Assembly (NCBI GenBank): GCA_903825645.1
Contig: CAIKBL010000087.1
Span: 1 to 64,000 of the forward strand
Length of the DNA stretch: 64,000 bases
Direction: 5' to 3'
From: an uncultured Pseudomonadota bacterium
Lineage (GTDB): Bacteria; Pseudomonadota; Gammaproteobacteria; Ga0077536
Shown here: piece after piece, positions 2,294 through 33,170 of the stretch
Position numbering within the stretch: position 1 is the first letter of the stretch
Layout of the letters: every line of letters starts with the position of its first letter
Position numbers and translations under genes: made by a program
Notes under the pieces: generated by a model
Told to the model about the DNA's origin: nothing
What the model saw: only the letters and a program-made list of their open reading frames with translations
The model's database searches: none

Positions 2294-2329
2294 GACTCTG
2301 TTTGTTCGTGTACCGATTGTTTTCGGAAA

Positions 2330-3341: not shown

Positions 3342-3344
3342 AAA

Positions 3345-4112: not shown

Positions 4113-4191
4113 CAGAAATGGCTTTCAATCCGTCCCAGTCGCGAAGAAACCGATTACATTTACTTCTTCGGCTTCCAGATGGTTACCGTCT

Positions 4192-5418: not shown

Positions 5419-5429
5419 GGGTTTCTCGC

Positions 5430-11855: not shown

Positions 11856-11913
11856 GGCTTGACGCTCCTAACGAGGATATGCCAGGAGTCGTACGCGTGT
11901 GCGCATAAGCGCT

Positions 11914-11969
11914 AAATCAAACCGTCCGTGACCAGACGGAAGCGCGACGACTCCGTGAGTGTCGTCGCG
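11914..11969 (-). promoter_or_regulatory. Hairpins between riboswitch aptamer and btuB (likely expression platform)
   Basis: On the minus strand a nine-pair stem (CGCGACGAC with GTCGTCGCG, 11943-11951 and 11961-11969) is followed by a second stem, CCGTC/GACGG (11922-11926 and 11935-11939), and then TTTGATTT. The second hairpin with its T-rich tail resembles a weak intrinsic terminator lying between the B12 box and the btuB start. Its role as the ligand-controlled switch is inferred. Confidence 0.45.
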
Positions 11970-12019
11970 ACGGTTTCCCTCGCAGCTACTGGCGCACCCC
12001 GGCCGGTAACAGGACGACG

Positions 12020-12195
12020 GCACGAGGCGGGTTTCCTGGCTCCCGGGTCACTGCTTGCATTCGCCTTCCCGAGGGGATCCTCAGTGGCTTCTTGAATACT
12101 CGCTCGCCGGTCACAGTTGCGGGGGCAGCCGCGGCATCACACCGCGTTCCAATTTAAGTCCCTTGCGGGAACCTTGTGCGCAGCCGGAGCATATC
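12020..12195 (-). promoter_or_regulatory. Cobalamin riboswitch
   Basis: Read on the minus strand, the leader has the conserved core GCCGCGGCTGCCCCCGCAAC followed by TGTGACCGGCGAGC. At its 3' end is the B12 box AGCCAGGAAACCCGCC (12026-12041). The spacing between the two and the upstream GGGAACC-type P3-P4 region fit the AdoCbl aptamer. It heads btuB-btuF-btuC-btuD. In this class, bound adenosylcobalamin represses expression. The outer boundaries are approximate because the P1 stem was not resolved in detail. Confidence 0.9.
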
Positions 12196-12342
12196 CGATT
12201 TGGGGGGCAGGGCGCTAGATTGAGCCTCTTCCAGCGGCATAGGAGGCTGAAAGTAGCGATTCCGGGTCGATCATGCGTAGATTCTACAAAAAACTGAGAG
12301 CATCAACGGCGATCTCGCTTTGCTTGACGCCTTCGGCTGCCC

Positions 12343-12486
12343 TTACCCATCGAGGTATACGGAGAAGAACTCGACGAAGCGCCGGCTGGCGTCAGGGCTG
12401 GGCGCGAACAACGCCGGCAGAGCGGAGGCCGTGCCCACGGTTACCGTTTGTGCAGCATGGCCGGGTGGAAGCAAGGCATTGGACAT
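12343..12486 (-). pseudogene. Tyrosine recombinase, N-terminal stub
   Basis: Forty-seven codons beginning MSNALLPPGHAAQTV and containing LPALFAPSPDASRRFVEFF, which matches the SAM-like N-terminal domain of plasmid and island tyrosine recombinases (LPALFA..P.A.RRF.EFF). A TAA follows at the point where the conserved ..N..TRRAY should begin, and the catalytic domain is absent. It starts 3 nt after the stop of the PIN toxin frame, so toxin-antitoxin and recombinase probably arrived together. Confidence 0.5.
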
Positions 12487-15590: not shown

Positions 15591-17177
15591 TTAGGACGTT
15601 TCTACGGAGATCTCGGTTACCTCCGGCAGACCCAGTTCTTGCCAACGTTGTGTCAGCAGGGTGAGGCCGGGCTCGGCGAGCGCAGCGGCGCGCAGCGCAG
15701 CGAGGGCGGTGGCCGCGTCGGCGCGTCCCTGTAACATCGTAGCCGCACGGGAGAGTCGATCAAATTTACTGTTGCCGCGCGCATGCGTGTCGCTGTATCC
15801 CTTTATCACGCGGCGACAGCGGATGAGTTCGAGTGCGAGCGCGTAATCGCTCGGCATGATCGCCAGCACCTGGCTGAGCCAGGCGCTGAGGTGAGCGCGC
15901 TCCTGATGATGTCGAAGACTGTGGCGGCGCCAGTGCCGCAAGCTCGCGAGACCGTGCAGGAGCAGGTGGCCGCGTACGGTGTGCGGTCGGACGCGCTGAC
16001 CCCGCGCAAGAGCAGCACTGAGCAGTCCAGTCAGCCAGTGGTTTCGGGCCAACCCGTTGGCCAAGCGGGGCGGCAGGAGCGCCAGGATTTCCTCAAGGCG
16101 CGGGTGAAAGTACTCCACGGTCCCTACCACCTCGTCTGGACCGGCACCGATTTCGGCCCGGACTCGTGCGGTCCGACTGGCACGCGTCTTCAGATCGGCC
16201 ACCCGGATGATGTCGTCGTAGGCCATCGCGACCGCCACCCAGCGCGCCGCCTCGAGGGTGGCGAGATGCGCCTGGACGGCACTCCCGCATGCGTCCGCTC
16301 GGATCTGTAGCCGGGTCATGTGATCAAGATATTCATGGCCGTAGGCGATGTCCTGATATTCAAGCACCCGTTGCAGCCCGGCGCCGAGCATCGCGTGGGC
16401 GTGGGCGGGGAACGTATTGGCGATGCGCTGGCGTAACGGTTCAACCGCCGGGCTGGCTGCGCGCGTCGGCAGTTCGCGCGGCGACGTCGCCATCGGATCA
16501 GGAGCTAATTCCACACGGACCGGTTCGCGCATCGCGCGCACGCCGGCCGCCAAGGCCCGCAAACTCGCCTCGACTCCGATGCCAGCGCGCTGAATGGTGG
16601 CTTCGAATGCCGACTCACTAAACGGCAACTCGCCGCAGCCGGCCAGCGCGCCAAATAAGGTTGCCGAAATCACACTCCCGCTTTTTTGGGCTAGGGCTTT
16701 CATGTCCTCGTGCAGGAAGCGAAGGGCATGGGTCTGACCGGCTTCGAGGACGGCAGCCGCATCCGCGATCCCGTTGCCGGGCGCGACTTTTTCGAGCGTG
16801 GCGTAATCGCGATGAGACGAGCAAATAAGTGTGGTCCTGTCTGGCGTGACGAGCCCACGCTGCAGGGCACGCCCGGCTTCCATCAGTTCGGAGGCGATGA
16901 CGATGTCGACCTCTCCAGGGACTGGCATGAGCGCGAAGATGGGTGGGCCGCGGAGCGCTTGTACATGCGCTTCGGCGAAGAGCTCCAGGTAATAGACTGT
17001 CGCCCCGGTACGTTGCGCCACGCCTGCCACGGAGGTGGCCTGCGCCAAGAAGCCATTGTGCTCAGCCAGATCGACGATCCAGTCGACCAAGACACCGCCG
17101 CCTTGACCGCCCATCGCCAAGACCGCAATGGTAATGGGCCGCGTCGGATCGTCCCCCAGCCGGCGCACGGTTGTCAC
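15591..17177 (-). CDS. iorB: Indolepyruvate oxidoreductase, beta/gamma-type subunit (IorB-like)
   Basis: The second subunit of an indolepyruvate (aryl-2-oxoacid) ferredoxin oxidoreductase, about 528 residues from a GTG at 17177. That GTG overlaps the iorA stop (GTGA at 17174-17177). The N-terminal 200 residues are the POR gamma domain, with VLAMGGQGGGVLVDWIVDLA and later SGSVISATLFGALAGCGELP. The long C-terminal extension, with HEYLDHMTRL and IRCRRVIKGYSDTHARG, resembles the domain found in long proteobacterial IorB proteins. Such enzymes convert aryl pyruvates from aromatic amino acid transamination into aryl-acetyl-CoA, passing electrons to ferredoxin. Confidence 0.85.
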   Translation of the reverse strand: MTTVRRLGDDPTRPITIAVLAMGGQGGGVLVDWIVDLAEHNGFLAQATSVAGVAQRTGATVYYLELFAEAHVQALRGPPIFALMPVPGEVDIVIASELMEAGRALQRGLVTPDRTTLICSSHRDYATLEKVAPGNGIADAAAVLEAGQTHALRFLHEDMKALAQKSGSVISATLFGALAGCGELPFSESAFEATIQRAGIGVEASLRALAAGVRAMREPVRVELAPDPMATSPRELPTRAASPAVEPLRQRIANTFPAHAHAMLGAGLQRVLEYQDIAYGHEYLDHMTRLQIRADACGSAVQAHLATLEAARWVAVAMAYDDIIRVADLKTRASRTARVRAEIGAGPDEVVGTVEYFHPRLEEILALLPPRLANGLARNHWLTGLLSAALARGQRVRPHTVRGHLLLHGLASLRHWRRHSLRHHQERAHLSAWLSQVLAIMPSDYALALELIRCRRVIKGYSDTHARGNSKFDRLSRAATMLQGRADAATALAALRAAALAEPGLTLLTQRWQELGLPEVTEISVETS

Positions 17178-19378
17178 GCGGGATCTCCGGCATAGAGCGT
17201 CCGGGCGGCGAGCGTGCGGCGCTGACGGTCCTGAAGCCAGCCGACGATCCGACGGCGCCACTTGTCCAGACGGCGCTCCCAACCGCCGGGATGACGCACC
17301 CATTCGATGCGGTAGAACGAGGGACACAAAATCGCGGCATCGGCGACCTCGCCGCAATGCCCACATGCCACACAGCCGTCATCAACGTGTGCCACGGGAT
17401 CCGGTTTTAACGGATCTCCGCTATTGCGGAGCGTCAGCGAGGGACACCCCGACAGGCGCATGCACGCATGATCGCCACTACAGATATCCGCATCAACGCC
17501 AAATTTTTCTCGTACGACGCGCTCGCCGCGCTGGTCTGCAGCGGCGACCAACGGCTTCTCCCGACGCTGCTTATTCAGCATGCATTCGCTTTGCGCGACG
17601 ATGACTTTGGGACCCTGAAAATCGCTCGTCAGCGCTTCCTGCAGCGTGTCTCGCATTTTATTCACGTCATAGGTATCGTCGACGGTTCGGATCCACTCGA
17701 CACCGACGCCGCGCAACGCCTCCCCGATGGCATGCCGTGTACTGCGGTTGTGCTTATCCAGCCGGGAAGAAGGTAAATCTTGTCCGCCAGTCGCCGCGGA
17801 ATAGTTGTTATCCACGATAACGATGATCCCATCCGCCTTGTTGAATACGGCATTGCTGATCCCGCTCGCCAAGCCGTTATGCCAGAAACCGCCGTCTCCC
17901 ATCATGGCGATCGATCGTTTACTCGCGGGCACATTGAACGCGGCTGCACTGGAGGCGCCGAGGCCATAGCCCATGGTCGAGGCGCCCAGGTGAAAGGGCG
18001 GCATAGCAGCAAACAGGTGGCAACCAATATCTGCAGAAATATGGTGTTGCCCGAGTTCTTCCTGCACTAAGGTCAGGGCGGAAAAAATCGGACGTTCGGG
18101 ACACCCAATGCAGAACCCCGGGGGACGCGCGGGGACGATCCCCGCCAGTACCGGCACGCTGACGCTCGGGCTGGCGGGGGTCTCGGCCGGCTGCGGATCG
18201 CGCGGACCGCGGGCCGGAAGACCGACGGCGACGGGTTTCGCGAGCGCCGCCGGATGGTGGCGCTGCAGAAAGCCGGCTAGACCGCGTTTGAGCTCAGCGA
18301 CGGTGTACTCGCCTGCCTTGGCGAGCAGATCTTTGCCGTGGACTTTGACGTGCATGCCGGCGCGGCCCAGCACCGCATGGATAGCCTGCTCGTGATAATC
18401 CGGCTGACCTTCCTCGATGATTAACACGGCGCGTTTGCCTTGGCAGAAGCGGATGACTTCGGCGTCAATGATCGGGTAAGCGACGTTCAAGACGTAGAGC
18501 GGGATCCGGGAGTTGCCGCGGAGATCGGACATGCCATAACTCATAAGCGCGCGCTGCACGTTGTTGTACAGTCCGCCGAGCATGATGATGCCGAGATCGG
18601 CAATTTCGCCTTCGAAAAATTCATTTAATCCGCGGGCTTCGATGAAACGCACCGCCGCGGGCCAGCGCTCGGTGATTTTTTCCTGCTCATGCAAATAACT
18701 CGCCGGCGGTAAGACAATTCGACTGGTGTCGCGCACGGGCGACTCCAGCGCTTGCCGCAAAGTGAACGGTGGGCGGATATTCTCCCGGGTGACAAAGCTG
18801 CCGTGCAGGTGACAGGCGCGTACGCGCAGTTCAAGCATCACCGGTGTGCGACTAGCCTCAGACAGCTCAAAGGCATCATGGACGGTCTGCACGATAGTCG
18901 GCAGGTTGGGTCGAGGATCCAGCAACCATATTTGGGATTTCATCGCGAACGCATGGCTGCGCTCTTGCATGATCGAAGATCCCTCTCCGTAATCTTCGCC
19001 GAGGATAATCACCGCGCCCCCGGTCACCCCACCCGAAGCGAGGTTCGCCAGCGCGTCGGAGGCCACGTTGGTGCCGACCGTGGACTTCCAGGTGACGGCG
19101 CCCCTGATTGGGTACATCACGGACGCGGACAGTGTCGCGGCTGCCGTCGCCTCGTTCGCACTGGTTTCGAAATGGACGCCGAGCGCCTGCAGGATAGGTT
19201 CGGCGTCCGAGAGCACGTCCATGAGATGAGAGATGGGCGAGCCCTGGTAGCCCGCGACATAACCGACCCCGCACTCGAGGAGCGCCTTGGTGACGGCCAG
19301 TATGCCTTCGCCATGGAAAACTGAGCCGGGTGGGGCGCGTAGTTTTTCGACCTCAGCCTTGAAAGATCGCTCAGCCAT
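17174..19378 (-). CDS. iorA: Indolepyruvate oxidoreductase, alpha-type subunit (IorA-like)
   Basis: A 734-residue thiamine-diphosphate enzyme subunit. The N-terminal pyrimidine-binding region starts with LECGVGYVAGYQGSPISHLM. A cysteine motif FCIGCPERPIF lies near 425, and the TPP-binding segment MMGDGGFWHNGLASGISNAV...IVDNNYSAATGG near 494-525. At the C-terminus, about 636-690, cysteines in CSGDHACMRLSGCP and CVACGHCGEV...LCP would bind iron-sulfur clusters. With IorB it oxidatively decarboxylates aryl pyruvates. The start lies 45 nt after the cyclase gene, and the stop overlaps iorB. The likely operon is cyclase-iorA-iorB. Confidence 0.88.
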   Translation of the reverse strand: MAERSFKAEVEKLRAPPGSVFHGEGILAVTKALLECGVGYVAGYQGSPISHLMDVLSDAEPILQALGVHFETSANEATAAATLSASVMYPIRGAVTWKSTVGTNVASDALANLASGGVTGGAVIILGEDYGEGSSIMQERSHAFAMKSQIWLLDPRPNLPTIVQTVHDAFELSEASRTPVMLELRVRACHLHGSFVTRENIRPPFTLRQALESPVRDTSRIVLPPASYLHEQEKITERWPAAVRFIEARGLNEFFEGEIADLGIIMLGGLYNNVQRALMSYGMSDLRGNSRIPLYVLNVAYPIIDAEVIRFCQGKRAVLIIEEGQPDYHEQAIHAVLGRAGMHVKVHGKDLLAKAGEYTVAELKRGLAGFLQRHHPAALAKPVAVGLPARGPRDPQPAETPASPSVSVPVLAGIVPARPPGFCIGCPERPIFSALTLVQEELGQHHISADIGCHLFAAMPPFHLGASTMGYGLGASSAAAFNVPASKRSIAMMGDGGFWHNGLASGISNAVFNKADGIIVIVDNNYSAATGGQDLPSSRLDKHNRSTRHAIGEALRGVGVEWIRTVDDTYDVNKMRDTLQEALTSDFQGPKVIVAQSECMLNKQRREKPLVAAADQRGERVVREKFGVDADICSGDHACMRLSGCPSLTLRNSGDPLKPDPVAHVDDGCVACGHCGEVADAAILCPSFYRIEWVRHPGGWERRLDKWRRRIVGWLQDRQRRTLAARTLYAGDPA

Positions 19379-20394: not shown

Positions 20395-20919
20395 GTGCTG
20401 TTCAGCGTTATCCCCCGGGGGTACCATCCGGCTCCCATTTATCGCCGGAGGTCCTTTCAGAATGCCCGTCTCGTGCGTGTAATCCCAACGGCGCCAGGCC
20501 CCCGCGCGCCCGTGAGCTGCCGGCGAGTCGGGTGCTTGGTGGCGCTCTGCTGCTGCTTGTTTTCAGGTGTCAGTCGTGCCGAGATCCGCTGTCATTACGA
20601 ATACGGAGGGCAGGCGACAATCCTGGAGGTGGCGCCCGACGTCGACCCTTATCGTGCGCCAGTGCTGAAGATAGGCTCCTATCTGATGTTCCGCGTTGTG
20701 TGGCAGACCACCCCGCCCGCGCACGCGGCGGTGCACACATATGTCTATGTGGATACCGGGGATGCCCCGATCATTCTGCAACAGGGCTCTTGGTCGTTGC
20801 CGCAGATAAACGCAGCGCATTATGGTTTTACCGGACGGCAGCGGGTGTATGAGCCGGCGCGGGACAGCGAACTGCAGTACTGGTGTGAGAGCTCAGCCAC
20901 GGACACCCGCGCGCCATGA
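20395..20919 (+). CDS. Secreted protein of unknown function, coupled to capA
   Basis: The frame opens at a GTG and gives up to 174 residues. A hydrophobic export segment GCLVALCCCLFSGVSRAEIR lies near 52-71, with likely cleavage after SRA. The mature part is about 105 residues with IRCHYEYGGQATILEVAPDV, VWQTTPPAHAAVHTYVYVDT and two cysteines that could form a disulfide. The true start may be an internal GTG nearer the signal peptide, as the first 45 residues look non-conserved. The stop overlaps the capA start by 4 nt (ATGA), so the two are translated together. I recognise no named family. Confidence 0.65.
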   Translation: MLFSVIPRGYHPAPIYRRRSFQNARLVRVIPTAPGPRAPVSCRRVGCLVALCCCLFSGVSRAEIRCHYEYGGQATILEVAPDVDPYRAPVLKIGSYLMFRVVWQTTPPAHAAVHTYVYVDTGDAPIILQQGSWSLPQINAAHYGFTGRQRVYEPARDSELQYWCESSATDTRAP

Positions 20920-21884
20920 GTGCCCGTAGCTGGTCAGCAGCCGCGCTACTGCTTTTCGCCTGGGCGTGTTTTGCGCGCGACGTATCGGTCAAACTTGTGT
21001 TCGCCGGTGACATCATGTTGGACGATGGGCCCGGACGCCTGATCGCCAAGGGTGGCGATCCGCTGCAGGATTTCGCCTCGACGGTGATGGACAGTGACTT
21101 GGCGATCGCCAATCTCGAGTGCCCGGTCGCGACGGGGGGTAGCGCTAAACCCGGCAAAATTTATACGTTCCGGGCCAAGCCTGCGGCGTTGCGCGTCCTG
21201 CAAGGGCGCTTTCAGGCACTGGCGCTCGCCAACAACCATTCAGGTGATTACGGCAAAGCAGCGTTTCTGGAGACGATTGCACACCTTGACGAAGCGGGTT
21301 TTCAGCATTTCGGGGGCGGGCGGAATCTGACTGAAGCGCATGCCCCGTTGTGGATTACGCGGAAAGGGCTGCGGATCGCCCTGTTGGGCTATGACGAGTT
21401 CAAGCCGCGCAGCTTCGAGGCCGGACCCACCTGGCCCGGGATCGCCTGGAGCGAGGATGCGCTGGTGATAGCCGATATTCGGGCGGCACGCGCTGCAGGT
21501 GCCGATCTCGTTATTCCCATGATGCACTGGGGATGGGAACGCGAGCCGGAACCGTCGGCGCGGCAGCGCGCACTGGCCCGCCTGATGATCGATGCGGGTG
21601 CCGATATGGTGGTCGGGGGACATCCGCATGTGACCCAGGGCGTGGAGTATTACAAAGGCAAAATGATTGTCTATAGCCTCGGTAATTTCATTTTTGATGG
21701 ATTCTTCACCGCGCCGACGCGCACCGGCTGGGTGCTGCGGGTGACCGTTGATCGTCACGGCATGCTCGACTGGGATACGGTGGGTGCGGTGCTTGATGAC
21801 AACGGCAGCCCACACCGTGCGCAGGGGATCCCAATGCCCTGTGGACGCAAAGGAGATTCGGTGCCCAGAATCTGTTCCCCGTGA
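20916..21884 (+). CDS. CapA-family metallophosphatase-like protein
   Basis: A 322-residue protein of the CapA/PgsA family (calcineurin-like fold), with an N-terminal signal (LLLFAWACFARD). Motifs: VKLVFAGDIMLDDGPGRLIA, DLAIANLECPVA, FQALALANNHSGDYG, VIPMMHWGWERE, and MVVGGHPHVTQGVEYYKGK with YSLGNFIFDGF, all diagnostic. In Gram-positives CapA helps make or export poly-gamma-glutamate. In Gram-negatives without other cap genes, as here, the role is unknown. It is coupled to the upstream secreted protein. A decayed partial copy of its 3' half lies at 32901-33170. Confidence 0.85.
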   Translation: MSARSWSAAALLLFAWACFARDVSVKLVFAGDIMLDDGPGRLIAKGGDPLQDFASTVMDSDLAIANLECPVATGGSAKPGKIYTFRAKPAALRVLQGRFQALALANNHSGDYGKAAFLETIAHLDEAGFQHFGGGRNLTEAHAPLWITRKGLRIALLGYDEFKPRSFEAGPTWPGIAWSEDALVIADIRAARAAGADLVIPMMHWGWEREPEPSARQRALARLMIDAGADMVVGGHPHVTQGVEYYKGKMIVYSLGNFIFDGFFTAPTRTGWVLRVTVDRHGMLDWDTVGAVLDDNGSPHRAQGIPMPCGRKGDSVPRICSP

Positions 21885-23715: not shown

Positions 23716-24387
23716 TTAGTTTTCAGGCTTGCGAGCGATTAAAAAAAATTGCTTGCCCAGAAATTTCCAAGCAAATGGAAAATTTAAGTAGAGTCGAACC
23801 AACAGAGGATGAGTAGGCAAACTACCTTGCGTCGTATAGGGCAGAAATTTATCTAAGCATTTGATGATTTTAAAATTTTTTAATTTAAGCGCTTCACATA
23901 AAGACAAGTGTGTAAGACCAAGGTGGTGGTCGTAAAAATCCCAATATTTTCCAGGAAGATAGCGCAAGTTCGGCCCCAAAATGAGATAACGCCCACCCGG
24001 CTTCAGCACGCTAAAAACCTGATCAAGAAATCCGTCCAATGCAGCTTTATCCGCAAGATGCTCTAGAAAATTTGAGGTAAACACTACATCTGCCTTTGCG
24101 ATGCCTATGGTGTCGAGGGAATTCGCAGAGATCATTCGGAAGTCAATCTCTCGATTCAAGTGTATTCTGCTATCCGGATTAAGGTCTATTCCAATTTTTT
24201 TTCCGGCTCTTATGTTATTTATGAACTCTCCGTAGCCACAAGCGACGTCAACAACGACGTCGTCCCGATTAATAAAATTCTGAAAGAAATTTCGGCATAA
24301 AATTTCCCATATTCTATTTTTTTTGGGCAAGAATTCGTCTTTGAAACGTATTCGATAGAGGTCTGTTAGTTTCTTTTCGTCGTTCAT
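23716..24387 (-). CDS. Class I SAM-dependent methyltransferase
   Basis: A 223-residue methyltransferase. Motif I is VVVDVACGYGEFINNI, with the acidic IGIDLNPD after it, then ADVVFTSNFLEHL and LKPGGRYLILGPNLRYLPGK. It is the type often found in polysaccharide clusters, where it may methylate a sugar or a lipid carrier. Its ATG overlaps the stop of the GtrA-like gene (ATGA at 24384-24387). It is the last gene of the cluster running down from 32.5 kb. The DNA here is visibly AT-richer than the metabolic genes to the right. Confidence 0.8.
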   Translation of the reverse strand: MNDEKKLTDLYRIRFKDEFLPKKNRIWEILCRNFFQNFINRDDVVVDVACGYGEFINNIRAGKKIGIDLNPDSRIHLNREIDFRMISANSLDTIGIAKADVVFTSNFLEHLADKAALDGFLDQVFSVLKPGGRYLILGPNLRYLPGKYWDFYDHHLGLTHLSLCEALKLKNFKIIKCLDKFLPYTTQGSLPTHPLLVRLYLNFPFAWKFLGKQFFLIARKPEN

Positions 24388-24791
24388 CGTTTCTGCCTGA
24401 AAGTGAAGAATTTGTAAATCAAGAACGTGGCAAAAATTGGTACGAATATTGCGAGGCCATGTGCAATCCCTGCAGCATAATTAACGAACATCGTTTCCAT
24501 CAAAACTCGCCGCAACAACATTGAAGATCCCCATACTATTGGGAAAACGGACAAATTTACGATCAAAAAATCTCGAGCTTGTTTGTGAACGGGTCTGGTA
24601 GAGGACGGGAACACGTATCGCTTATTCAAAGTGAACGCTGCGGTTATACCAATGCCGTAGGCAACGGCCACGGCCACAGGAAACGACGTCCAAATATTGA
24701 GTACATAACGCGAAGACCAGTTCAGGAATGCGGCAGTAGTACCGACAACCACGAAACGTAGAAATTGAGCACTGATAAAATGCCTGATCAC
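24384..24791 (-). CDS. GtrA-family membrane protein (polyprenyl-phosphate-sugar flippase-like)
   Basis: Four hydrophobic helices in about 135 residues, starting [20 protein letters not shown], with [20 protein letters not shown] between helices 2 and 3. Both are GtrA hallmarks. I chose the GTG at 24791 because it overlaps the stop of the upstream flavoprotein (GTGA) and begins the family-like part. The longer frame from 24884 lies wholly within the preceding gene. GtrA proteins move undecaprenyl-phosphate-linked sugars across the inner membrane. In mycobacteria a GtrA protein (Rv3789) sits next to dprE1/dprE2, matching the gene company seen here. Confidence 0.82.
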
Positions 24792-26077
24792 GTTATTGCC
24801 ATTCGCGCTAGGTTTCGGCCGAAATCGATGCTTTCGGAAATTCCCCGATCCTCTGGGTAGTAATAAGAGGTGTCGGCTAGCCATAGACCTTGTACCGGCA
24901 GCGCCACGGGCGGCAGGCGATCTAAATAAGCGGGCTCGCAGATGGGTTGAGCGTAGCGGTAGCGGCTGGCTCGCAGGTCGATGAAATCGTCATTCGTCAG
25001 GGCTGGGTTAATTTTGCATAGATAGCGGCGCACTTTGTCGAGGAAGGCGCTATCAGGCTCTTTGAACTTGGGATGTTCAGCGGGCATGTAGAACGGCACG
25101 TAGACAATGTGGTGTTCCAAGGGTCGCAGGTTGGTATATTCGACCAGGCCGGGGATGTCCATGTCTGGATCGTTGGTGTTCAGCCAGAAATTCTCGGTCA
25201 CGGCTTTTTTCAGCTTAGCAATGACGCAGACCACGGCGATATTCTTTATGGCCTGAAATACATGCAGAACTTCCGACGGCAAGTCGGGCATGAGGCGGGG
25301 TACATAGGGTAGGGGGATGGTGCTGATCACCTTGTCGAAGGCATGAAAGACATCGCCTTGCTGGATCCCTTTGATGTTTGCGTTTTCAATGATCACCCGC
25401 GACACCGGCGAAGACAGACGAATCTCGCCACCGTGACGCGCGATGTCGGTCGTTAAAGCCTGCAAGAGCGTATTTGAGCCTCCTTCTAAGTAGCCCAGTT
25501 TCTCCCGGAACAGATCGTAGCGGGAGCGCCCGATGCGGCGAATCCGACTCCAGATCCAAGCGGCAGAAAGTCCGTAGGCATAGTCGTAGAATTTGTAATC
25601 GAACAGCTTGCGCCACAGCACTTCGAAGGCCTCCTCACCCACCCAACGTTTGATCCAGGCGGTAGCCTCTAGATTATCCAAGGGCCGCCAGTCCTTACGT
25701 TTGGTAGCAAGAAAAGCGTGTAGGCCATAACGAAATTTTGCGATAAGACTCAGCCCCGGGAACCGGAGCAAGGCGAATGGGTTGCCCCACGCGTGCAGTG
25801 CGCCCTGATAGAAATAGCCCATTTTTGTTTCCACCCAGCGCATTTTGTCGGAGATCTGTAACTCCTCGAGCACTTGCAGGAAAGCCTGATCCGACGTGCA
25901 ATGGAAGTGGTAAAAGCGCTCAATGTCGAGGCCGTTAAAGTTGAAGATGGCAGTCATACCCCCAACCCGGTCGTCGGCTTCGAATACCACGGGACAATGG
26001 CCCTCCCGGGCCAATTGGTAGGCGACTGCCAAGCCCATGGGGCCGGCGCCTAGGACGGCAATGCGTTCGCTCAACAT
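24788..26077 (-). CDS. FAD-dependent amine oxidase-like oxidoreductase
   Basis: About 429 residues from the ATG at 26077. The N-terminal dinucleotide-binding motif is [20 protein letters not shown], followed by [13 protein letters not shown]. Mid-protein has [20 protein letters not shown], and the C-terminus closes the FAD site with [20 protein letters not shown]. It belongs to the protoporphyrinogen/amine oxidase fold that includes UDP-galactopyranose mutase-like proteins of polysaccharide clusters. The exact reaction is unknown; a redox or isomerase step on a sugar or lipid-linked sugar is plausible. It starts 2 nt after the epimerase stop and overlaps gtrA. Confidence 0.78.
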
Positions 26078-26079
26078 GG

Positions 26080-27024
26080 TTAGAAATCCAGCACGATGGG
26101 GCTGTAAACCGGATCGTGATAAGTGAGGGCAATCGCCTCGGCGAATGCAGTGGGCGTGACACCAAAGATGCCCGGCCAATCGATTACTTCAAAATCGTCG
26201 CGTGCCACCAATGCTGCCAGTTGTTGTGTCGTGAACGGGGGATTTCGATCAAACACGGCCCAGATGGCCAAAAGGGCATGAAACAGCCAGTACGGAATAG
26301 GGAGGATCACGGCGCGGGAACCGATGGCATGCCGGATTTGGCGAATGATATCGATGTAATCGACGTGCTCATGGCCGGAGATGTTGAAGGCACCGGTGAG
26401 CCGATTTTCTATGCAGCTGGTGATGATATTGCAGAAGTCGCCGGCGTACAGGGGTTGGCGCATATAGCGGCCATGACCGGGAATAGGGAATACCGGCGCT
26501 CTCCGCATAAAACGCGAAAGCCAGCCTAAGTGTTTGCGGTCAAACCAGCCGAACATCAGCGTGGGGCGCAGGATGACATGGGGGATCCCACAATCCATTG
26601 CCATACGTTCTTGCGCCTTCTTGGTGTTGGTATACCAGTCGTTGGCGACCGATTCGACCACCGAGGAGCTGATGTGCACAAGATAGGAAACGCCATTCTT
26701 TTTCATTGCGTCGAGGACGCGTCGGCTCGAGTCGAGGTTGTTGCGCTCGAATTGGTTTACGTCATTACCTCCGATTTGCGCCTGCAGCATCACTACCGCT
26801 TCGGCACCGGAAAGGCGCTTTTCCCATTCGCCATGACTGGCCAGATCAGCATATTCCGCCACGATCTCGGGATGCATTCTGCGCAGAATTTCCAAGTTCG
26901 TGCGGTGTTTGTCGAGCACCACAAGGTTCGAGTACCCCTGCTCCTTCAGCAGGGCGACCAAATTCTGACCTACCAGTCCGGCTCCGCCCGGCAACACGAT
27001 ACGAGCGCTTTTAGTTCTTTCCAT
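26080..27024 (-). CDS. NAD-dependent epimerase/dehydratase family protein
   Basis: An extended short-chain dehydrogenase of 314 residues. The nucleotide motif is [20 protein letters not shown], with [11 protein letters not shown] after it. The catalytic YTNTK is preceded by HISSSVVE. The middle carries [20 protein letters not shown] and [13 protein letters not shown]. Members modify nucleotide- or lipid-linked sugars. It lies 21 nt after the DprE2-like gene, in the same operon. The C-terminal [12 protein letters not shown] is hydrophobic and might contact the membrane. Confidence 0.8.
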
Positions 27025-27045
27025 TTCAGCTAATCCTGACGACCA

Positions 27046-27783
27046 TCACAGGCCGAGCCGCTTGAAGATAGACCCTGGGATATGGATGGTGATCAGCATG
27101 ATTAAGCGCCAGAACCCAGGGGTGTACAGGGTATCGCGCCGTTTCTCAACCGCGCGCACGATGTCTCGCCCCACCTTTTCAGGAGTTGCTATCAGCAGCT
27201 TGGGCAGTGTCAGACGCTGAGTCATCGGGGTGTCGACGAACCCCGGTTTGATCGTTAGAACGTGCACGCCAGATTTCGATAAACGAGCACGGAGACCGCT
27301 GCAAAACGTTGTTACTGCCCCCTTGGCGGCGCCATAGAGATAATTCGAAGGGCGCCCGCGATCACCAGCTACCGAGGAAATCACTGCGATGCAGCCTGAT
27401 TTCTGCGCTTCCATACGGTTAGCCAAGTCCGTCAGGAGCGCGATGACACTCAATCCGTTGTTGGTGAATTCCTGTACTGCTACCTTTGGGTCTTGCTGGC
27501 ACGCGGCCTGATCGGGCAAGGTGCCATGGGCAATGAGTGCGATATCGATCCAGCCTATGCTTGCACAACAAGCGTCCAGCATATCAGCGACACCATCTAA
27601 CTCGTTCAGGTCGAGAATGTACTGGTGAACTGATGCGCCTCGTGCCGCCAGATCAAACCCTACCTGATCCAGTTTTTCCGCCGAACGCCCGACCAAGTAA
27701 AAACGGACTCCCGGATCGGCCCAGCGACGCATACAAGCGTTGGCGATAGCCGAAGTAGCTCCAATGACGAGAATATTTGGCAT
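27046..27783 (-). CDS. Short-chain dehydrogenase, DprE2-like
   Basis: A classical SDR of 245 residues. The cofactor motif is ILVIGATSAIANACMRRWAD, then YLVGRSAEKL, IALIAHGTLPDQ, catalytic Ser in AVISSVAGDRGRPSNYLYGA with the Tyr and Lys of YGAAK, and TIKPGFVDTPMT. The form with GATSAIA and VGRS resembles mycobacterial DprE2, which with DprE1 epimerises decaprenyl-phosphoryl ribose to arabinose. The DprE1-like gene lies two genes upstream. The C-terminal ending MLITIHIPGSIFKRLGL is hydrophobic, as in DprE2. Chemistry is inferred from the partner genes. Confidence 0.78.
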   Translation of the reverse strand: MPNILVIGATSAIANACMRRWADPGVRFYLVGRSAEKLDQVGFDLAARGASVHQYILDLNELDGVADMLDACCASIGWIDIALIAHGTLPDQAACQQDPKVAVQEFTNNGLSVIALLTDLANRMEAQKSGCIAVISSVAGDRGRPSNYLYGAAKGAVTTFCSGLRARLSKSGVHVLTIKPGFVDTPMTQRLTLPKLLIATPEKVGRDIVRAVEKRRDTLYTPGFWRLIMLITIHIPGSIFKRLGL

Positions 27784-27881
27784 TTCAACCGCCCTAGTGG
27801 AACGTCGGAGACCGATGTCGATGTCCGAGCGATCCGGCTTCCGGGTCGAAATAAAGAGAAACTAGGCTACTAGGCATTTTC

Positions 27882-29546
27882 TTACTCCAAACAGTAGAGA
27901 TGAAGACTGGTGGTATCTAACGTAGCTTGAGTGTCATCCGGGACTATTTTGTAGCGCAGCGGACGTTTTGCGTACCTGGTTAAAAATGCAAACTGCATGG
28001 AGGTAATACCTGCGGGAAAATAGCGTTCATAGCCTTCCCAGGGCGTTGCGCCCCAGATAACGGTCACTTTCGACGATTTCGACGATTGATAGACATGAAC
28101 ACTGAATTCCAAGTCAGTTGCACGAGCGTTGCGGCAGCGATTGAAAGCGTCTTCGACATAGGTGACGTGGCGACATATTGGTGTCTTCGATATCGGAGTA
28201 CCTTGGGCACACTCCGAGGTATCAGTTATTTTAAAGTCATGCTGACCCAGGGATAGGAGCCTCGAGTGCTGACGCCATCGTTCGCCGATCGAGCTTGGTT
28301 CCAGTATTAGGGGCTGCCCGGACCCAATGGGTACGGAAACACGATGGCCGCCCTCGGCGAGTAAGGCATAGGCCTGAAAGTGAAGATTGTCTCGTTCGAC
28401 CTTAACCCAAAGTAATAAAAATAGCGGTACTAGGATCGCGGGTGCTAAAAGCCGCTTCACGTTGTGGCCGTTAGCCAAAGCGACGCTCAAAAAAGCAACG
28501 ATTGAATACGGCACCAAGAAATATCTAGCGTCACGGCTTAGCGGGCCGATAGCCGGCAGATTATTGTGGCCCTTGAATAACCCGGCGCCGAGGATGATAC
28601 CTGCTGTCAATAGCATCAACGCTACCGATCTGGGGTTAAGTCGATTCGTCTGGATGTTGCCGCGAGCTTCATCGACTAAGGCGAACATCAGTTGGTATAG
28701 AAAAGTCAGCCAGAATATTATGGAAAGAGAGACTACGCTCGGTCCATGGCCACCGAAAAATACCGTTCTATCAATAATGCCTACCCAATCCCCAATTCCC
28801 CCCGTGCTGCTGGGCAGGGGAGTCATCGTGTCATCGATCTGCTTGGGCAATGTGCTCGAGAAATTCACCACGATAGTCAGTAGCTGCAGCGCGCTACCGA
28901 TGCTGAAAGCTAAGTAGCCATGGCGGAATCGCTGCCAGTCACGGAAGATGGCAAGACGTAACGCGATGACGGGACTCAGTAAGACAGAAAACGGACCACT
29001 CAACGACAGCATTAAGAGTAGCAAAAATTCCGAAAAGGTCCGCTCGCGTGGACAGGGGATGCAGACGATTAAAACGAGCGCAATTGCGAGAAACCACTGA
29101 GAGTTTGTTAGATTGAAGAAGGGTTCACCTATGCTAGGTTGAGCCGCGATCAAGAAGCTGACGAGGATGCTTCCCATGATGCCAAAGTGAAGCGAACTCA
29201 GGCGACGCACCATCACATACAGCATGAGGCAATAAGCTACGACCCAGCCTACAAAAAATACGCGAGGTGCCACTCCTAGTGGCAGATAAGACGTCAAGAG
29301 CGCGACCATTCTGGGAAAAAAATGGAGATATCCGGCGTATGGCTGCCACAGTGATTTGAATCCCATGCTCAAAGCTGCGCCGAGAAATATCGAGCCGTCT
29401 TCATACGCCAGACAGTTATCTACGAAGAACTTCAAAGAAAAAGAAGGGTTTATTCGCAGCCTTAAGACAATAAAAGAGATCGAAAGCGCCGCTAGAAACG
29501 AGCCGGATATTCCAGAATCGACGCGGCACCGACTTCTAGATGTCAC
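27882..29546 (-). CDS. Polytopic membrane protein, possible GT-C glycosyltransferase
   Basis: A 554-residue protein with about ten hydrophobic segments in the first 390 residues, then a soluble, probably periplasmic C-terminal domain of about 160. It starts at a GTG three bases after the stop of the 80-codon gene. An acidic YEDGSIFLGAA in the first loop (about 48-58) is where GT-C enzymes keep catalytic Asp/Glu. The topology and its place among polyprenyl-phosphate-sugar genes suggest an enzyme that uses the lipid-linked sugar on the periplasmic face. I recognise no named family, so this is inference. Confidence 0.65.
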   Translation of the reverse strand: MTSRSRCRVDSGISGSFLAALSISFIVLRLRINPSFSLKFFVDNCLAYEDGSIFLGAALSMGFKSLWQPYAGYLHFFPRMVALLTSYLPLGVAPRVFFVGWVVAYCLMLYVMVRRLSSLHFGIMGSILVSFLIAAQPSIGEPFFNLTNSQWFLAIALVLIVCIPCPRERTFSEFLLLLMLSLSGPFSVLLSPVIALRLAIFRDWQRFRHGYLAFSIGSALQLLTIVVNFSSTLPKQIDDTMTPLPSSTGGIGDWVGIIDRTVFFGGHGPSVVSLSIIFWLTFLYQLMFALVDEARGNIQTNRLNPRSVALMLLTAGIILGAGLFKGHNNLPAIGPLSRDARYFLVPYSIVAFLSVALANGHNVKRLLAPAILVPLFLLLWVKVERDNLHFQAYALLAEGGHRVSVPIGSGQPLILEPSSIGERWRQHSRLLSLGQHDFKITDTSECAQGTPISKTPICRHVTYVEDAFNRCRNARATDLEFSVHVYQSSKSSKVTVIWGATPWEGYERYFPAGITSMQFAFLTRYAKRPLRYKIVPDDTQATLDTTSLHLYCLE

Positions 29547-29549
29547 GGT

Positions 29550-29792
29550 TTAGTTCCCCGAATCCTGAAATGGGACAATAAAGGAGGATGCATTAGTCTC
29601 TCGCCAAAAGGCATCAAGCCCGTCATCGGAAGGCCGAAATCTAAGGACGTCAATGTCAGCATGGCCGCCACTGAGAGAGTGAGTGCTCAAAAGAATTCTC
29701 CTATCGCTGCTATCGTAGAGTGCGCGATTAACATAGGTCGCTCGCGGGCTAAGTGTCGGCTTAAAAAATGACTTGAAAAGAAAGTCACGCAT
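29550..29792 (-). CDS. Small protein of unknown function between DprE1-like and membrane protein genes
   Basis: Eighty codons beginning MRDFLFKSFFKPTLSPRATY. The ATG lies inside the end of the DprE1-like gene (8-nt overlap), and the stop is 3 nt before the next GTG. Such packing argues that it is really translated. No signal peptide or membrane helix is evident. It contains RRILLSTHSLSGGHADIDVL and is fairly polar. It resembles nothing I know. Confidence 0.5.
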   Translation of the reverse strand: MRDFLFKSFFKPTLSPRATYVNRALYDSSDRRILLSTHSLSGGHADIDVLRFRPSDDGLDAFWRETNASSFIVPFQDSGN

Positions 29793-31104
29793 GCGTTGCT
29801 CTTCTCCAGAATCTGGAGGATATGACAGGATCTCGGAGTGCTTCGAGGCGCTCCCATCCCGGGTAGGATGCCTGAAAATCAGATCCGCTCATATGTGCGT
29901 CCTTGGCCGGGTAAAGCCGCCCCCCAGCCTCACGCACGATGGCGTCAAGTTTTGCGAACAGATTTGCCGTCTTTTCGGCCTGATGAGGGAAATCCAAGGC
30001 TAGCGTCGCTCCAGGTAGCGGAAACGAGAGCAGCCCTGGCGATGCCACTTTACCAAAGCGCTTCAGTACCGCCAGGCAGGAGCCACTATGCGTAGCCGCT
30101 ATGGCGCCGAGTAACTCCCGAATTGCCGCCGCGGCGCTGGCATCCGGAATTGCGCATTGGTATTGCTGGAATCCGATTGGCCCATAGATTCGGTTCCAGT
30201 TCAGGAGACGGTCCAGAGGATAGAAAAATGGATCATAGTCGACCCGAATGTCGTGACGGTTGGCGCGGTGCATCCCGTAATAGACTTTATTCAAAAGCCG
30301 CAAGGACAGTCGATTGATCATGGAAACCGGCGGTGTGAAGGGGACACGAAGCTCCGACACATTTGCCAATGTGAGCGGTCCTTCCTCAGCGTGATTTCCC
30401 GCCAGATAAATGCCGCGTCCAGCGGACTTCCCTTTTGCCAGACAATCGATCCAAGACGCGACGAACTCGTACTTCGAGTCCAGTTCGACCGAGAGGTCGA
30501 AAAACGCGTCCAAGCTTCCGAAGCGTATTTGGGTAGTCTCAATCAGGCTGGATTTTATCGGGGTCAGTTGCAATTCCACCCAGTCGACGATGCCGGTCAG
30601 ACCCAGTCCCCCGATGGTTGCCGCATACAGTTCGGCGTTCTCGTGTCGAGCGCAGGTGAGTTGGCCGCGATCGCTTCTGAATAGGCCGAAGCGCGGCACA
30701 TGACAGCCAAAAGTGCCTCTGATGTGGTGGTTCTTGCCATGCACATCGTTAGCCAGGGCCCCACCGAGGGTAACGAATTTAGTTCCTGGGGTGACCGGAA
30801 GAAACCATCCCTTGGGAATAGAGATCGCTAGAATTTCGCCTAGGGTGACCCCGGCCTCGGCTCGAATGAGACCGGTGTCCCAGTTGGCGGCGATGAGCCG
30901 GTTGAGCGCACGCATGTGCAGTACATGGCCGCTTGCCGCCAGGCAACTGTCGCCGTAAGAGCGTCCGTTGCCGAAGGCCAGGAGCGTGCCGTGTTGTGTG
31001 GCCATGTCCGTCACCGCTTGTTGAATGTCCCCACGCCAGTGGCATGGCGTACCGCTTTGTGGGTAAGGGGGGTAATTCCCCCACGAAGTCAGCGTCGCGT
31101 TCAT
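29785..31104 (-). CDS. FAD-linked oxidoreductase, DprE1-like (decaprenylphosphoryl-ribose 2-oxidase type)
   Basis: A 439-residue flavoprotein of the FAD_binding_4 / D-arabinono-lactone oxidase superfamily. FAD-binding segments: LAFGNGRSYGDSCLAASG, GEILAISIPKGWFLPVTPGT, LGGALANDVHGKNHHIRGTF, and ELYAATIGGLGLTGIVDWVE. DprE1 oxidises the 2-hydroxyl of polyprenyl-phosphoryl-ribose, and DprE2 then reduces the ketone to give the arabinose epimer. The start overlaps the HAD-UbiA stop (ATGA at 31101-31104), so the oxidase follows directly the enzyme expected to make its lipid substrate. Whether the sugar is ribose/arabinose cannot be proved from sequence. Confidence 0.82.
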   Translation of the reverse strand: MNATLTSWGNYPPYPQSGTPCHWRGDIQQAVTDMATQHGTLLAFGNGRSYGDSCLAASGHVLHMRALNRLIAANWDTGLIRAEAGVTLGEILAISIPKGWFLPVTPGTKFVTLGGALANDVHGKNHHIRGTFGCHVPRFGLFRSDRGQLTCARHENAELYAATIGGLGLTGIVDWVELQLTPIKSSLIETTQIRFGSLDAFFDLSVELDSKYEFVASWIDCLAKGKSAGRGIYLAGNHAEEGPLTLANVSELRVPFTPPVSMINRLSLRLLNKVYYGMHRANRHDIRVDYDPFFYPLDRLLNWNRIYGPIGFQQYQCAIPDASAAAAIRELLGAIAATHSGSCLAVLKRFGKVASPGLLSFPLPGATLALDFPHQAEKTANLFAKLDAIVREAGGRLYPAKDAHMSGSDFQASYPGWERLEALRDPVISSRFWRRATHA

Positions 31105-32528
31105 GAGGCGGCCCAGAAGACGATGGCGAACAAAATCGCAATGATCAGACTATTGCGGTCTTTCATCGCAAAGACCACGGGATCCTCGTGCATCCAGCCA
31201 CGGTGCGTGACCATCCAGATCCGGGTAACCCAATAAAGCAACAGCGGACAAGCGAGCCAGATCACTTGGGGATGACGATACAGTGCCAAGGTGCTCCTGT
31301 CCTGGATATAGAGCGCTAAAACCATGACGGAGAGGAGGCCAGAGGCGGTTCCCAGCGAAGCAATCATTTCTAGATCGGCCGGGTAGTAGCCGCGTCCAGG
31401 CGTAACCTCATTTTTTCCTTCGGTGCGCGCTTCACGCAATTCCGCGTAACGCTTGACTAAAGCCAGACTGAGGAAGAGGAACATGGAAAAGGCAAGCATC
31501 CAAAAGGTCAGCACAACATCGAATGCAAATACCCCGGCGACGATTCGCATGGTATAGAGCATGGCCAGCGTGATGACGTCTACTGTCATGATTCGTTTCA
31601 GTACCAGGGAATAAGCTAACGTCAAAGCGTAATAGCACGTCAACGCGAGCGTGAATTCCCGGGGGAGTAGCCAGGTGGCGCCGGCGAACCCGCCCATCAG
31701 AAGCGCCGGGCACACCAGTAGAGCGGCTTTAATCGAAACGGTGCCGGCGGCGAGGGGGCGCGTGCGCTTGGTGCTATGTTGGCGGTCATCTTCTAGGTCA
31801 AGGAGATCGTTTAGTAGATAGACGCTGGAAGCGCACAGACCAAAAACAAAGAAAGCCAACAGACCCCTGATTAATAAATCAGGGTGGGAGATCTGGTGCG
31901 ATGCCAGCAGGGGCACGAAGATCAGCAAATTTTTCAACCACTGATGTGCGCGCAGTTGCTTGAGCCAAGGGCGCCAAGGGTCGGACGGGGAGGACCGAAT
32001 CACGCGCGCGACATTACCCAGCCGAGTGGCCCTTGCTTCGACACCCAGTTCGGGATTGACGAGATAGGCATGCCGAGCCGCTTGCCAGACTGCCAAATCG
32101 TCTGCCGAATTCCCCAGGTAGTCGAAGCCCTTTTCGCCGTATTCACGGACCAACAGGTCGCGTTTGGCACGGGCTGAAAGGTTGATATCGCCGTGTGTGG
32201 CCAGCACGCGCTCGAAGAGTCCGAGGTGACGAGCGATTTCGTCCGCGTACCGCTGGGGGCTGGCGGTTGCCAGAATCAGACTGCGGCCCTCGGCCTTTGC
32301 TTGTCGCAGGAAGGCAATGACGCCTTCATTGAAAGGCAGCGACGGGATATCGAGCGCGATCTCCGAAGCAAGACGCGTCTTAAGCGTCGCCTTACCTGAG
32401 AGGAGCCACTTGAGTGGCATTAGACTGCGCGCGGGGTGACGTCGGATAAAGGCGAAACCAGACTCGACTAGCAAATCCGAACGCAGCAAGGTCCCGTCGA
32501 GATCAACGACTAGCGGTGGCGTGTTCAA
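31101..32528 (-). CDS. HAD phosphatase fused to UbiA-family prenyltransferase (polyprenyl-phosphate phosphoribosyltransferase-like)
   Basis: Two domains in 475 residues. The first about 190 are a HAD hydrolase, with VVDLDGTLLRSDLL, LATASPQRYADEIARHL and GFDYLGNSADDLAVW. The rest is a UbiA-type membrane transferase, with LRAHQWLKNLLIFVPLL, the first Asp motif in YLLNDLLDLEDDRQH, STKRTRPLAAGTVS, a second region TVDVITLAMLYTMRIVAG, and about eight helices. In Mycobacterium the equivalent steps (Rv3806c transferase and Rv3807c phosphatase) make decaprenylphosphoryl-ribose. Here they are one chain. The frame begins at a TTG (32526-32528), 4 nt after the stop of an 18-codon ORF that has a very good Shine-Dalgarno site. 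Confidence 0.83.
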   Translation of the reverse strand: MNTPPLVVDLDGTLLRSDLLVESGFAFIRRHPARSLMPLKWLLSGKATLKTRLASEIALDIPSLPFNEGVIAFLRQAKAEGRSLILATASPQRYADEIARHLGLFERVLATHGDINLSARAKRDLLVREYGEKGFDYLGNSADDLAVWQAARHAYLVNPELGVEARATRLGNVARVIRSSPSDPWRPWLKQLRAHQWLKNLLIFVPLLASHQISHPDLLIRGLLAFFVFGLCASSVYLLNDLLDLEDDRQHSTKRTRPLAAGTVSIKAALLVCPALLMGGFAGATWLLPREFTLALTCYYALTLAYSLVLKRIMTVDVITLAMLYTMRIVAGVFAFDVVLTFWMLAFSMFLFLSLALVKRYAELREARTEGKNEVTPGRGYYPADLEMIASLGTASGLLSVMVLALYIQDRSTLALYRHPQVIWLACPLLLYWVTRIWMVTHRGWMHEDPVVFAMKDRNSLIIAILFAIVFWAAS

Positions 32529-32589: not shown

Positions 32590-32900
32590 GAATTTTACTC
32601 CTGTAATGGGTGGGGTTTCTTCAATAAGGCGTGGGGATGTAGCACAGCGCAAGTTGTCGGCCGCGATCGTGCTTGTCTTGATGTTGGGGGTGATGCGGCG
32701 TCCGACGTCAGGCGGAACAGCGGTCCGACGACCGCTTCGATCTCTGAAGCGACAGCTTTCGGGGTATCTAGCATGACCAACGCGTAGACGCAGAATCGTT
32801 GCCAGCGACGATTCGGGTTCTTAGCCGATATTTAGGTGACGCGTGTGGTCAGCGCCGACCCGGTTACCCCCCTGGGGCACCGGAAGTGCGCGTCAGAACC
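32590..32900. other. Intergenic stretch upstream of the polyprenyl-sugar operon
   Basis: About 310 bases with short overlapping frames on both strands and no recognisable protein or RNA. It probably holds the promoter of the minus-strand operon, but I could not identify -10/-35 elements with confidence. Confidence 0.35.
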
Positions 32901-33170
32901 CAAAGGCCGACAGCACGCACTGGCCCGTCAGATGATCGATGTGGATCCTCATAGGGTGGTCGGGGGCCAAGTGCGCCCAGGAGAACTTATTGGTTACAAC
33001 CTCGGCAATTTCGGTTTGGATTGAATTTTTACCGCCCACCCCGACAGGTACCGACTGGGTGCCGCAGGCGACGGTTGGGCTTTATTATATGCAATAAAGT
33101 GGCGAATATGGGGCTTAAAAGGGAGCGCTACCCGGTGCCCTGTGGACGCAAAAGAGACCCAAAAGAGGAC
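32901..33170 (+). pseudogene. Decayed 3' fragment of a capA-like gene
   Basis: The frame reads GRQHALARQMIDVDPHRVVG, then GYNLGNFGLD. The capA gene at 20916-21884 reads ARQRALARLMIDAGADMVVG and YSLGNFIFDG. Further on, in another frame, VPCGRKRDPKEDRAPV parallels its MPCGRKGDSVPRICSP end. Stops and shifts make it non-functional. It ends about 150 nt before the aldehyde dehydrogenase. Confidence 0.6.

Follow-up and report, generated by a model that had tools for sequence, protein, structure and literature searches.

The enzymes UbiA, DprE1 and DprE2 give polyprenyl-phosphate ribose and then polyprenyl-phosphate arabinofuranose (Araf), and a described example of this chemistry is the decaprenyl-phosphoryl-arabinose pathway of mycobacteria (Rv3806c, Rv3807c, DprE1, DprE2, Rv3789 and Emb). 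Here we analyse a cluster of nine open reading frames (ORFs) on the minus strand of a 64,000-nucleotide stretch of DNA (the window, contig CAIKBL010000087.1) from an uncultured gammaproteobacterium, at positions 23716-32528. The cluster shares with the mycobacterial pathway a UbiA phosphoribosyltransferase, DprE1, DprE2 and a small membrane protein as proposed flippase. It differs in having a fused HAD phosphatase in place of Rv3807c, two extra enzymes and a different, putative GT-C glycosyltransferase. We think it probable (roughly 0.72) that the cluster is a cassette, gained by horizontal transfer, for making, flipping and transferring a polyprenyl-phosphate pentose, and that the extra enzymes, a short-chain dehydrogenase/reductase (SDR) and a flavoprotein, add a two-enzyme step. 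This figure applies to the cassette and its extra step; the identity of the sugar lies outside it.

Several Gram-negative systems are also comparable. The noeCHOP genes of Azorhizobium, which arabinosylate Nod factors, resemble the window cluster in using a polyprenyl-phosphate-arabinose donor. To our knowledge, neither noeCHOP nor the pilin D-Araf system of Pseudomonas aeruginosa (TfpW) has the SDR/flavoprotein extension. Gtr-type periplasmic O-antigen modification (GtrA, GtrB and a serotype-specific Gtr) likewise combines a constant donor module with GtrA and a variable membrane-transferase partner, whereas the window donor would come from phosphoribosyl pyrophosphate (PRPP) via UbiA and not from a nucleotide sugar via GtrB. 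The TfpW system is cited in PMC11127046 as having a Gram-negative polyprenyl-phosphate-arabinose donor, as the window cluster would. Closest in several respects is the three-component pentofuranose system of Citrobacter youngae O1/O2 (Kelly et al. 2024, PMC11127046). The two share the HAD-UbiA fusion, entry through polyprenyl-phosphate ribose, optional epimerases and a predicted GT-C transferase with a C-terminal beta domain. The Citrobacter system has a MATE flippase; none of the nine window ORFs matches the MATE family in Pfam, and a GtrA-family protein takes that place. Its transferase belongs to GT136, whereas the window GT-C protein has no family match and a low-confidence model that resembles GT-C chains. 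Finally, the window cluster has DprE1 and DprE2 and, in addition, a second flavoprotein/SDR pair.

The ribose and arabinose core

The first ORF encodes a fusion of a HAD phosphatase with a UbiA transferase, and scores 660 bits against NF006088 (cut-off 351). Its UbiA domain scores 161 bits with the decaprenyl-phosphate phosphoribosyltransferase model, against 48 bits for the best other prenyltransferase model; the 4-hydroxybenzoate octaprenyltransferase model gives 29.5 bits. The Rv3806c structure 8j8j also matches this protein (E 1.7e-29). The kinship with Rv3806c proposed by the initial annotation therefore holds, and a grouping with other prenyltransferases is not borne out. The NDxxDxxxD and RxxE motifs are kept in all 79 aligned UbiA rows, and the HAD nucleophile, Asp9, is present in the window protein and, apart from 10 rows with a gap there, in 68 of 69 rows. 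Both the UbiA motifs and grouping and the HAD aspartate are those of a polyprenyl-phosphate phosphoribose synthase (PPPRS). In Citrobacter ORF15 the motif residues N, D, D, D, R and E were mutated, and R and E turned out not to be essential (PMC11127046). Pfam gave no second phosphatase family among the nine ORFs. In three loci of other genomes (L039, L042 and L046) the cassette UbiA lacks the HAD domain, and no separate HAD gene is found there at E < 1 within the sequenced stretch around each.

The second enzyme is an oxidase that groups with DprE1 (332 bits against NF053785; M. tuberculosis DprE1, E 1.6e-64) and not with lactone oxidases, whose models reach 27-43 bits; the initial annotation had named it correctly. 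Tyr50, His122, Lys124, Gln316 and Lys401, which we take to be the DprE1 active-site residues, are kept in 88 of 88 rows. At residue 369, the position aligned to Cys387 of mycobacterial DprE1, 86 of these rows have Ala and two have Thr; covalent inhibition by benzothiazinones would not be expected. The third enzyme, a reductase of the SDR superfamily, scores 327 bits against NF005489 (SDR family oxidoreductase, cut-off 267) and 171 bits against the DprE2 model NF053786, and its Ser137, Tyr150 and Lys154 occur in 88 of 88 rows. We write 'DprE1-like' and 'DprE2-like' because the scores fall below the NCBIfam equivalog cut-offs (500 and 250 bits, respectively).

Judged by residue-level homology, then, the core of the cluster is a polyprenyl-phosphate pentose pathway with its catalytic residues intact. 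This agrees with the initial annotation as to identity. Neither such a pathway in Gram-negative bacteria nor the phosphatase-transferase fusion is new, as both are already published: PMC11127046 shows biochemically that the Citrobacter HAD-UbiA fusion makes lipid-linked ribose, and reports DprE1/E2 homologues in the loci of Araf-containing glycans. In the same paper, the conversion of ribose to xylose is described as the work of one SDR.

An SDR and a flavoprotein that occur together

The extension of this core consists of an epimerase-like SDR with an NAD-epimerase fold and, next to it, a flavoprotein. The SDR has the Rossmann glycine motif and the Ser-Tyr-Lys triad of UDP-glucose-4-epimerase-like SDRs (G13, G16 and G19, and Ser120, Tyr131 and Lys135, in 93 of 93 rows), residues that do not indicate a substrate. 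The pairing of these two genes is best judged from 369 genomes of the class and from a plasmid collection, since the loci used for the other counts were picked by flavoprotein or SDR; the remaining genes were not selected for. Among the 369 genomes, 12 have the SDR (E <= 1e-30) and 14 the flavoprotein (E <= 1e-60). Twelve of these 14 are the SDR genomes, and the other two hold paralogues of 29-30% identity. On plasmids, seven of eight flavoprotein records exceed 46% identity and seven of 37 SDR records exceed 50%, the other 30 being Thermus records (28-29% among the matches listed). The same seven plasmids carry both genes. Five of the seven were opened, and each has the order UbiA, FAD (flavin adenine dinucleotide) oxidase, SDR, epimerase, flavoprotein and GtrA on one strand.

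A scan of GTDB contigs returned at least 587 candidate stretches, at least 506 of which encode a relative of the flavoprotein (E <= 1e-3, distant paralogues perhaps included). The SDR is also present in every one of the best 80 of these, where DprE2 and SDR matches below 34% identity were removed as paralogues. We then profiled 94 loci (11 from genomes, 80 contigs and three plasmids), counting genes on the strand of the flavoprotein and leaving out L044, whose flavoprotein lies on another contig. The SDR is found in 92 of them, GtrA in 89, DprE2 in 85, DprE1 in 82, UbiA in 79, the methyltransferase in 12 and a GT-C protein of the window type in 7. Where at least 9 kb of upstream sequence is available (68 loci) the SDR is present in 68, GtrA in 66, and UbiA, DprE1 and DprE2 in 65 each. 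The carriers belong to the Alpha-, Beta- and Gammaproteobacteria and include a Nitrospirota genome; among their genera are Burkholderia, Pseudomonas, Achromobacter, Variovorax (V. paradoxus, L113), Rhizobium, Janthinobacterium and Zoogloea. In Burkholderia stagnalis (L135, 331-15739) an 873-kb replicon carries the cassette, with isonitrile synthase genes a few kilobases away. The SDR-flavoprotein DNA of Pantoea has no match in E. coli genomes, the flavoprotein was not found in phages nor relatives of the SDR in viral contigs, and a phage record gave one weak UbiA match. Flank DNA from Burkholderia anthina matched 22 of the 369 genomes, none of which clearly belongs to that family.

DprE1 also occurs without the pair. 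It was found in eight of 58 genomes in a search of relatives (the window's own genome included), and seven DprE1 loci have no pair nearby, L049-L054 from this search and L187. Three of the genomes with such loci lack both SDR and flavoprotein (G042, G048 and G049) and one, G680, lacks the flavoprotein. In a quick tree of 89 DprE1 rows, 82 with the pair and seven without, the state changes at least five times, and three of these changes are forced by starred branches. L037, which has the pair, sits within a clade of pairless DprE1s, and its SDR-flavoprotein is 73% identical to that of L061 in the main group. Our interpretation is that different arabinose modules have probably gained or lost the pair, which has remained tied to this kind of module. 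Taken together, the co-occurrence of SDR and flavoprotein, the presence of the core in 65 of 68 loci, the pairless DprE1 loci and the tree suggest that this widespread cassette has two further steps beyond arabinose. We found no description of this extension in the literature searched for the gene set, and the available text of PMC11127046 does not describe the pair. The initial annotation had proposed that the flavoprotein, the epimerase-like protein and the methyltransferase lead to a further sugar. Strict linkage supports this for the first two, while the methyltransferase, in 12 of 94 loci, is an optional member.

The route that we propose is as follows. HAD-UbiA would join PRPP and polyprenyl phosphate to give polyprenyl-phosphate ribose, and DprE1 and DprE2 would invert C2 to give polyprenyl-phosphate arabinofuranose. 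The adjacent SDR and flavoprotein, as a second co-dependent pair, would convert the arabinose donor further. GtrA would flip the product, and the GT-C protein would move the sugar to a surface glycan, sometimes after methylation. The ribose and arabinose steps draw on homology to characterised enzymes at the level of residues. For the conversion by the pair, the flipping and the transfer, we infer roles from genome context and fold.

A number of observations weigh against this proposal. The core genes are not nearby in three of the 68 full-flank loci (L041, L111 and L123). Of the 92 loci in which at least 900 bp of sequence follows the flavoprotein downstream, 66 have GtrA within 1.5 kb on that side; in the rest it is elsewhere or unseen. 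Contig ends truncate three of the seven pairless loci (L050, L051 and L054). In the tree, the with/without label is partly clustered (shuffles average 6.8 changes and one in 500 reaches five) and several branches are long, making the exact number of changes soft. The closest fold of the flavoprotein is that of phytoene desaturase and not that of a mutase. Its Pfam matches are to Amino_oxidase and generic FAD/NAD-binding models only, with none to the mutase family GLF, and the modelled fold and the missing GLF match would fit action on a lipid as well as on a sugar. Lastly, of the 57 named loci with more than 15 kb of flank, only 14 have rhamnose-synthesis genes close to the cassette.

Candidate products of the pair

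The flavoprotein scores 565 bits against NF005560 (cut-off 252). Its model is confident (predicted local distance difference test, pLDDT, 89.4) and is closest to phytoene desaturase (Z 32.3, 418 residues aligned, root-mean-square deviation 3.2), followed by protoporphyrinogen oxidase (Z 29.9) and, among further matches, UDP-galactopyranose mutase (4dsh, Z 27.8, 397 aligned, deviation 3.7). Distant paralogues are encoded at L185 8433-9770, L186 2967-4307 and L115 18724-20058. In both loci that were opened, L185 and L186, the paralogue (27-30% identity) lies within about 5 kb of lipid-sugar-type genes. A GT2 gene adjoins it in L185, with an LPG_synthase_TM gene about 3 kb off; in L186 an LPG_synthase_TM gene adjoins it, followed by a gene that, judged by eye, resembles one for a sugar nucleotidyltransferase. 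With neighbours of this kind, the family may be associated with lipid-linked sugars more widely.

If the pair changes the sugar, a second inverted centre is a likely feature of the product, because the pair extends an arabinose module. With C2 and a second centre inverted, only D-lyxose (C2 and C3) or L-xylose (C2 and C4) remain. Our tentative candidate, to which we give a low probability, is polyprenyl-phosphate-linked L-xylose, for which ribose would be turned into arabinose, the flavoprotein would change the ring and the SDR would invert C4. Inversion at C4 needs the ring to open or change, and a mutase-like flavoenzyme could do that. We favour L-xylose because it occurs in the O-antigens of related bacteria and lyxofuranose reportedly occurs in no solved glycan. 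On the O-antigen of Ralstonia solanacearum, L-xylose is reported as a terminal, non-stoichiometric beta-pyranose (PMC10450222), and a Xanthomonas paper has, as cited, a partially L-xylosylated rhamnan in its title. Rhamnose and xylose are reported for Xanthomonas translucens lipopolysaccharide in PMC8042644, where the configuration is not given. The available parts of PMC3210612, PMC4153317, PMC8042644, PMC11976392, PMC5771553 and PMC2746572 contain no further L-xylose cases. An O-antigen setting is plausible for some cassettes, given the rhamnose-synthesis genes near 14 of the 57 mentioned above.

We also looked at 16 Ralstonia genomes, placed in the genus by 16S identity to Cupriavidus. DprE1 occurs in one of the 16 and the flavoprotein in none (a short FAD-motif match only, residues 7-45), R. 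solanacearum itself being probably absent among the 11 genomes checked by 16S. These 11 are 96.3-96.6% identical to Cupriavidus and lack the signature expected for R. solanacearum; seven carry one associated with R. pickettii. The window's own genome contains a partial 16S, although Rfam gave no 16S match for it. The Ralstonia result neither supports nor excludes the L-xylose proposal.

A rather less probable outcome is that the pair makes some other modified pentose (deoxy, keto or branched) and not a second epimer. The SDR superfamily includes 4,6-dehydratases and reductases, to which there are weak matches, and the chemistry is not fixed by these data. Against it, none of the protein families outside the six cassette genes is shared by more than 28 of the 95 clustered loci.

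We consider it unlikely that flavoprotein and SDR act as a further oxidase/reductase pair, inverting C3 to give polyprenyl-phosphate D-lyxofuranose. Such a pair would mirror DprE1 and DprE2, would account for the strictness of the pairing and would not need a change of ring. That said, so common a cassette (recall the SDR in all of the best 80 of at least 506 stretches) should have revealed its sugar, and lyxofuranose is stated to be absent from solved carbohydrate structures (PMC11127046). The flavoprotein also has an amine-oxidase-type fold, unlike DprE1.

Action of the flavoprotein on the polyprenyl chain, e.g. desaturation or saturation near the phosphate, with the SDR alone altering the sugar or finishing the lipid, strikes us as more doubtful still. 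The lead of phytoene desaturase among the fold matches (Z 32.3 against 29.9 for the next) speaks for it, as do the paralogues near other lipid-sugar-type genes, where the lipid is the common part. Yet it leaves the inseparability of SDR and flavoprotein in a pentose cassette unexplained, and GT-C and GtrA partners elsewhere presumably use ordinary polyprenyl phosphate. Least probable is an ordinary D-Araf system with two neighbours that have an unrelated job: UbiA, DprE1 and DprE2 alone are the published Araf gene set (PMC11127046), but the pair accompanies that module in 65 of 68 full-flank loci, in carriers that span three proteobacterial classes and a Nitrospirota genome.

A shared donor cassette points to a common surface sugar, as yet without an assignment in the literature searched. 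If the product is L-xylose, the cassette would provide a biosynthetic origin for the L-xylose of bacterial O-antigens. It would also mean that lipid-linked sugars are remodelled by more enzymes than DprE1 and DprE2, and that a ring mutase acts on a polyprenyl-phosphate sugar; we know of no other that does. The cassette may serve as a bioinformatic marker for predicting its sugar from genomes, and as a source of new enzymes for glycan engineering.

Partner genes, probable horizontal acquisition and surroundings

The 554-residue membrane protein has no Pfam or NCBIfam match. Homologues of 23-28% identity occur in five loci, in three of them between DprE2 and the SDR, and an ED is invariant. Its model is of low confidence (pLDDT 59); the four best matches, to Emb and PglB chains, all fall short of E <= 0.001. 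We regard the protein as a putative GT-C glycosyltransferase with a C-terminal beta domain. Among the 95 clustered loci, other large proteins that match nothing in Pfam form two families, present in 28 and 19 loci; an LPG_synthase_TM protein is present in 17 and an acyltransferase in 12. The transferase thus varies from locus to locus, which fits a constant donor with changing acceptors. In L117 one ORF (11290-12360) encodes a GtrA domain followed by a methyltransferase domain, and this fusion ties the methyltransferase to the same pathway.

The cluster looks horizontally acquired, and we infer this from four lines of evidence. The G+C content of the cluster block is 53%, against 60-61% in the flanks on either side. 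At the right edge, at about 32888-33157, there is a decayed copy of the 3' part of the CapA-like gene found at the left edge (repeats 71-95% identical), and the two possibly mark the boundary of an island. DprE1 is absent from five genomes of the same genus, one of which (G004) also lacks the SDR and the flavoprotein. Three other genomes of the family have DprE1s (L051, L052 and L054) in a different part of the tree.

Table 1. Positions of the cluster ORFs and of the left-edge gene in the window.
Feature	Position	Strand	Evidence
HAD phosphatase-UbiA fusion, polyprenyl-phosphate phosphoribose synthase	31101..32528	-	NF006088, PF12710+PF01040, 8j8j match, motifs
DprE1-like 2'-oxidase	29785..31104	-	NF053785, M. 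tuberculosis DprE1 match, active-site residues
80-codon ORF, probably not a gene	29550..29792	-	without family, without tblastn match
Putative GT-C glycosyltransferase, C-terminal beta domain, 554 aa	27882..29546	-	distant homologues, invariant ED, low-confidence model
DprE2-like reductase	27046..27783	-	NF005489, NF053786, Ser137/Tyr150/Lys154
Extended SDR, predicted second epimerase/reductase	26080..27024	-	PF01370, flavoprotein linkage, Ser-Tyr-Lys
Amine-oxidase-fold flavoprotein, predicted action on lipid-linked sugar	24788..26077	-	PF01593, NF005560, model fold
GtrA-family protein, putative flippase for lipid-linked sugar	24384..24884	-	PF04138 E 7e-13
Class I methyltransferase, optional member	23716..24387	-	PF13489
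CapA-like gene, left edge	20916..21884	+	PF09587

The nine ORFs lie where the initial annotation had placed them, and the overlaps of 4-8 nt that it described are real (UbiA/DprE1 4 nt, DprE1/80-codon ORF 8 nt, GtrA/methyltransferase 4 nt). The flavoprotein ORF as listed starts with a TTG (26179); in the alignment with relatives, the start falls on an ATG near 26077. Homologues or conserved partners were found for all of the ORFs except the 80-codon one. That ORF had been counted as a ninth gene and probably is not one, because it has no family match in Pfam or NCBIfam and no tblastn match in 18 loci (E <= 1e-4) or in 80 loci (E <= 1e-5).

The description of the surroundings as a polysaccharide cluster was loose: such genes are in the window, but about 17 kb of other genes separates them from the cassette. 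They form a separate polysaccharide export locus (1070-6248, minus strand) with glycosyltransferases, a methyltransferase and an O-antigen-type ABC transporter with a Wzt C-terminal domain, and might supply the acceptor for the cassette sugar. A Cobalamin riboswitch (12009-12191, minus strand, 113.6 bits) immediately precedes genes for a TonB receptor and a FecCD/periplasmic-binding/ABC set, which probably form an operon for B12 uptake. Two minus-strand ORFs that overlap in different frames, 15591-17366 and 17174-19378, with POR/DUF6537 and TPP-binding matches, resemble a single indolepyruvate-type oxidoreductase gene that a frame change has divided.

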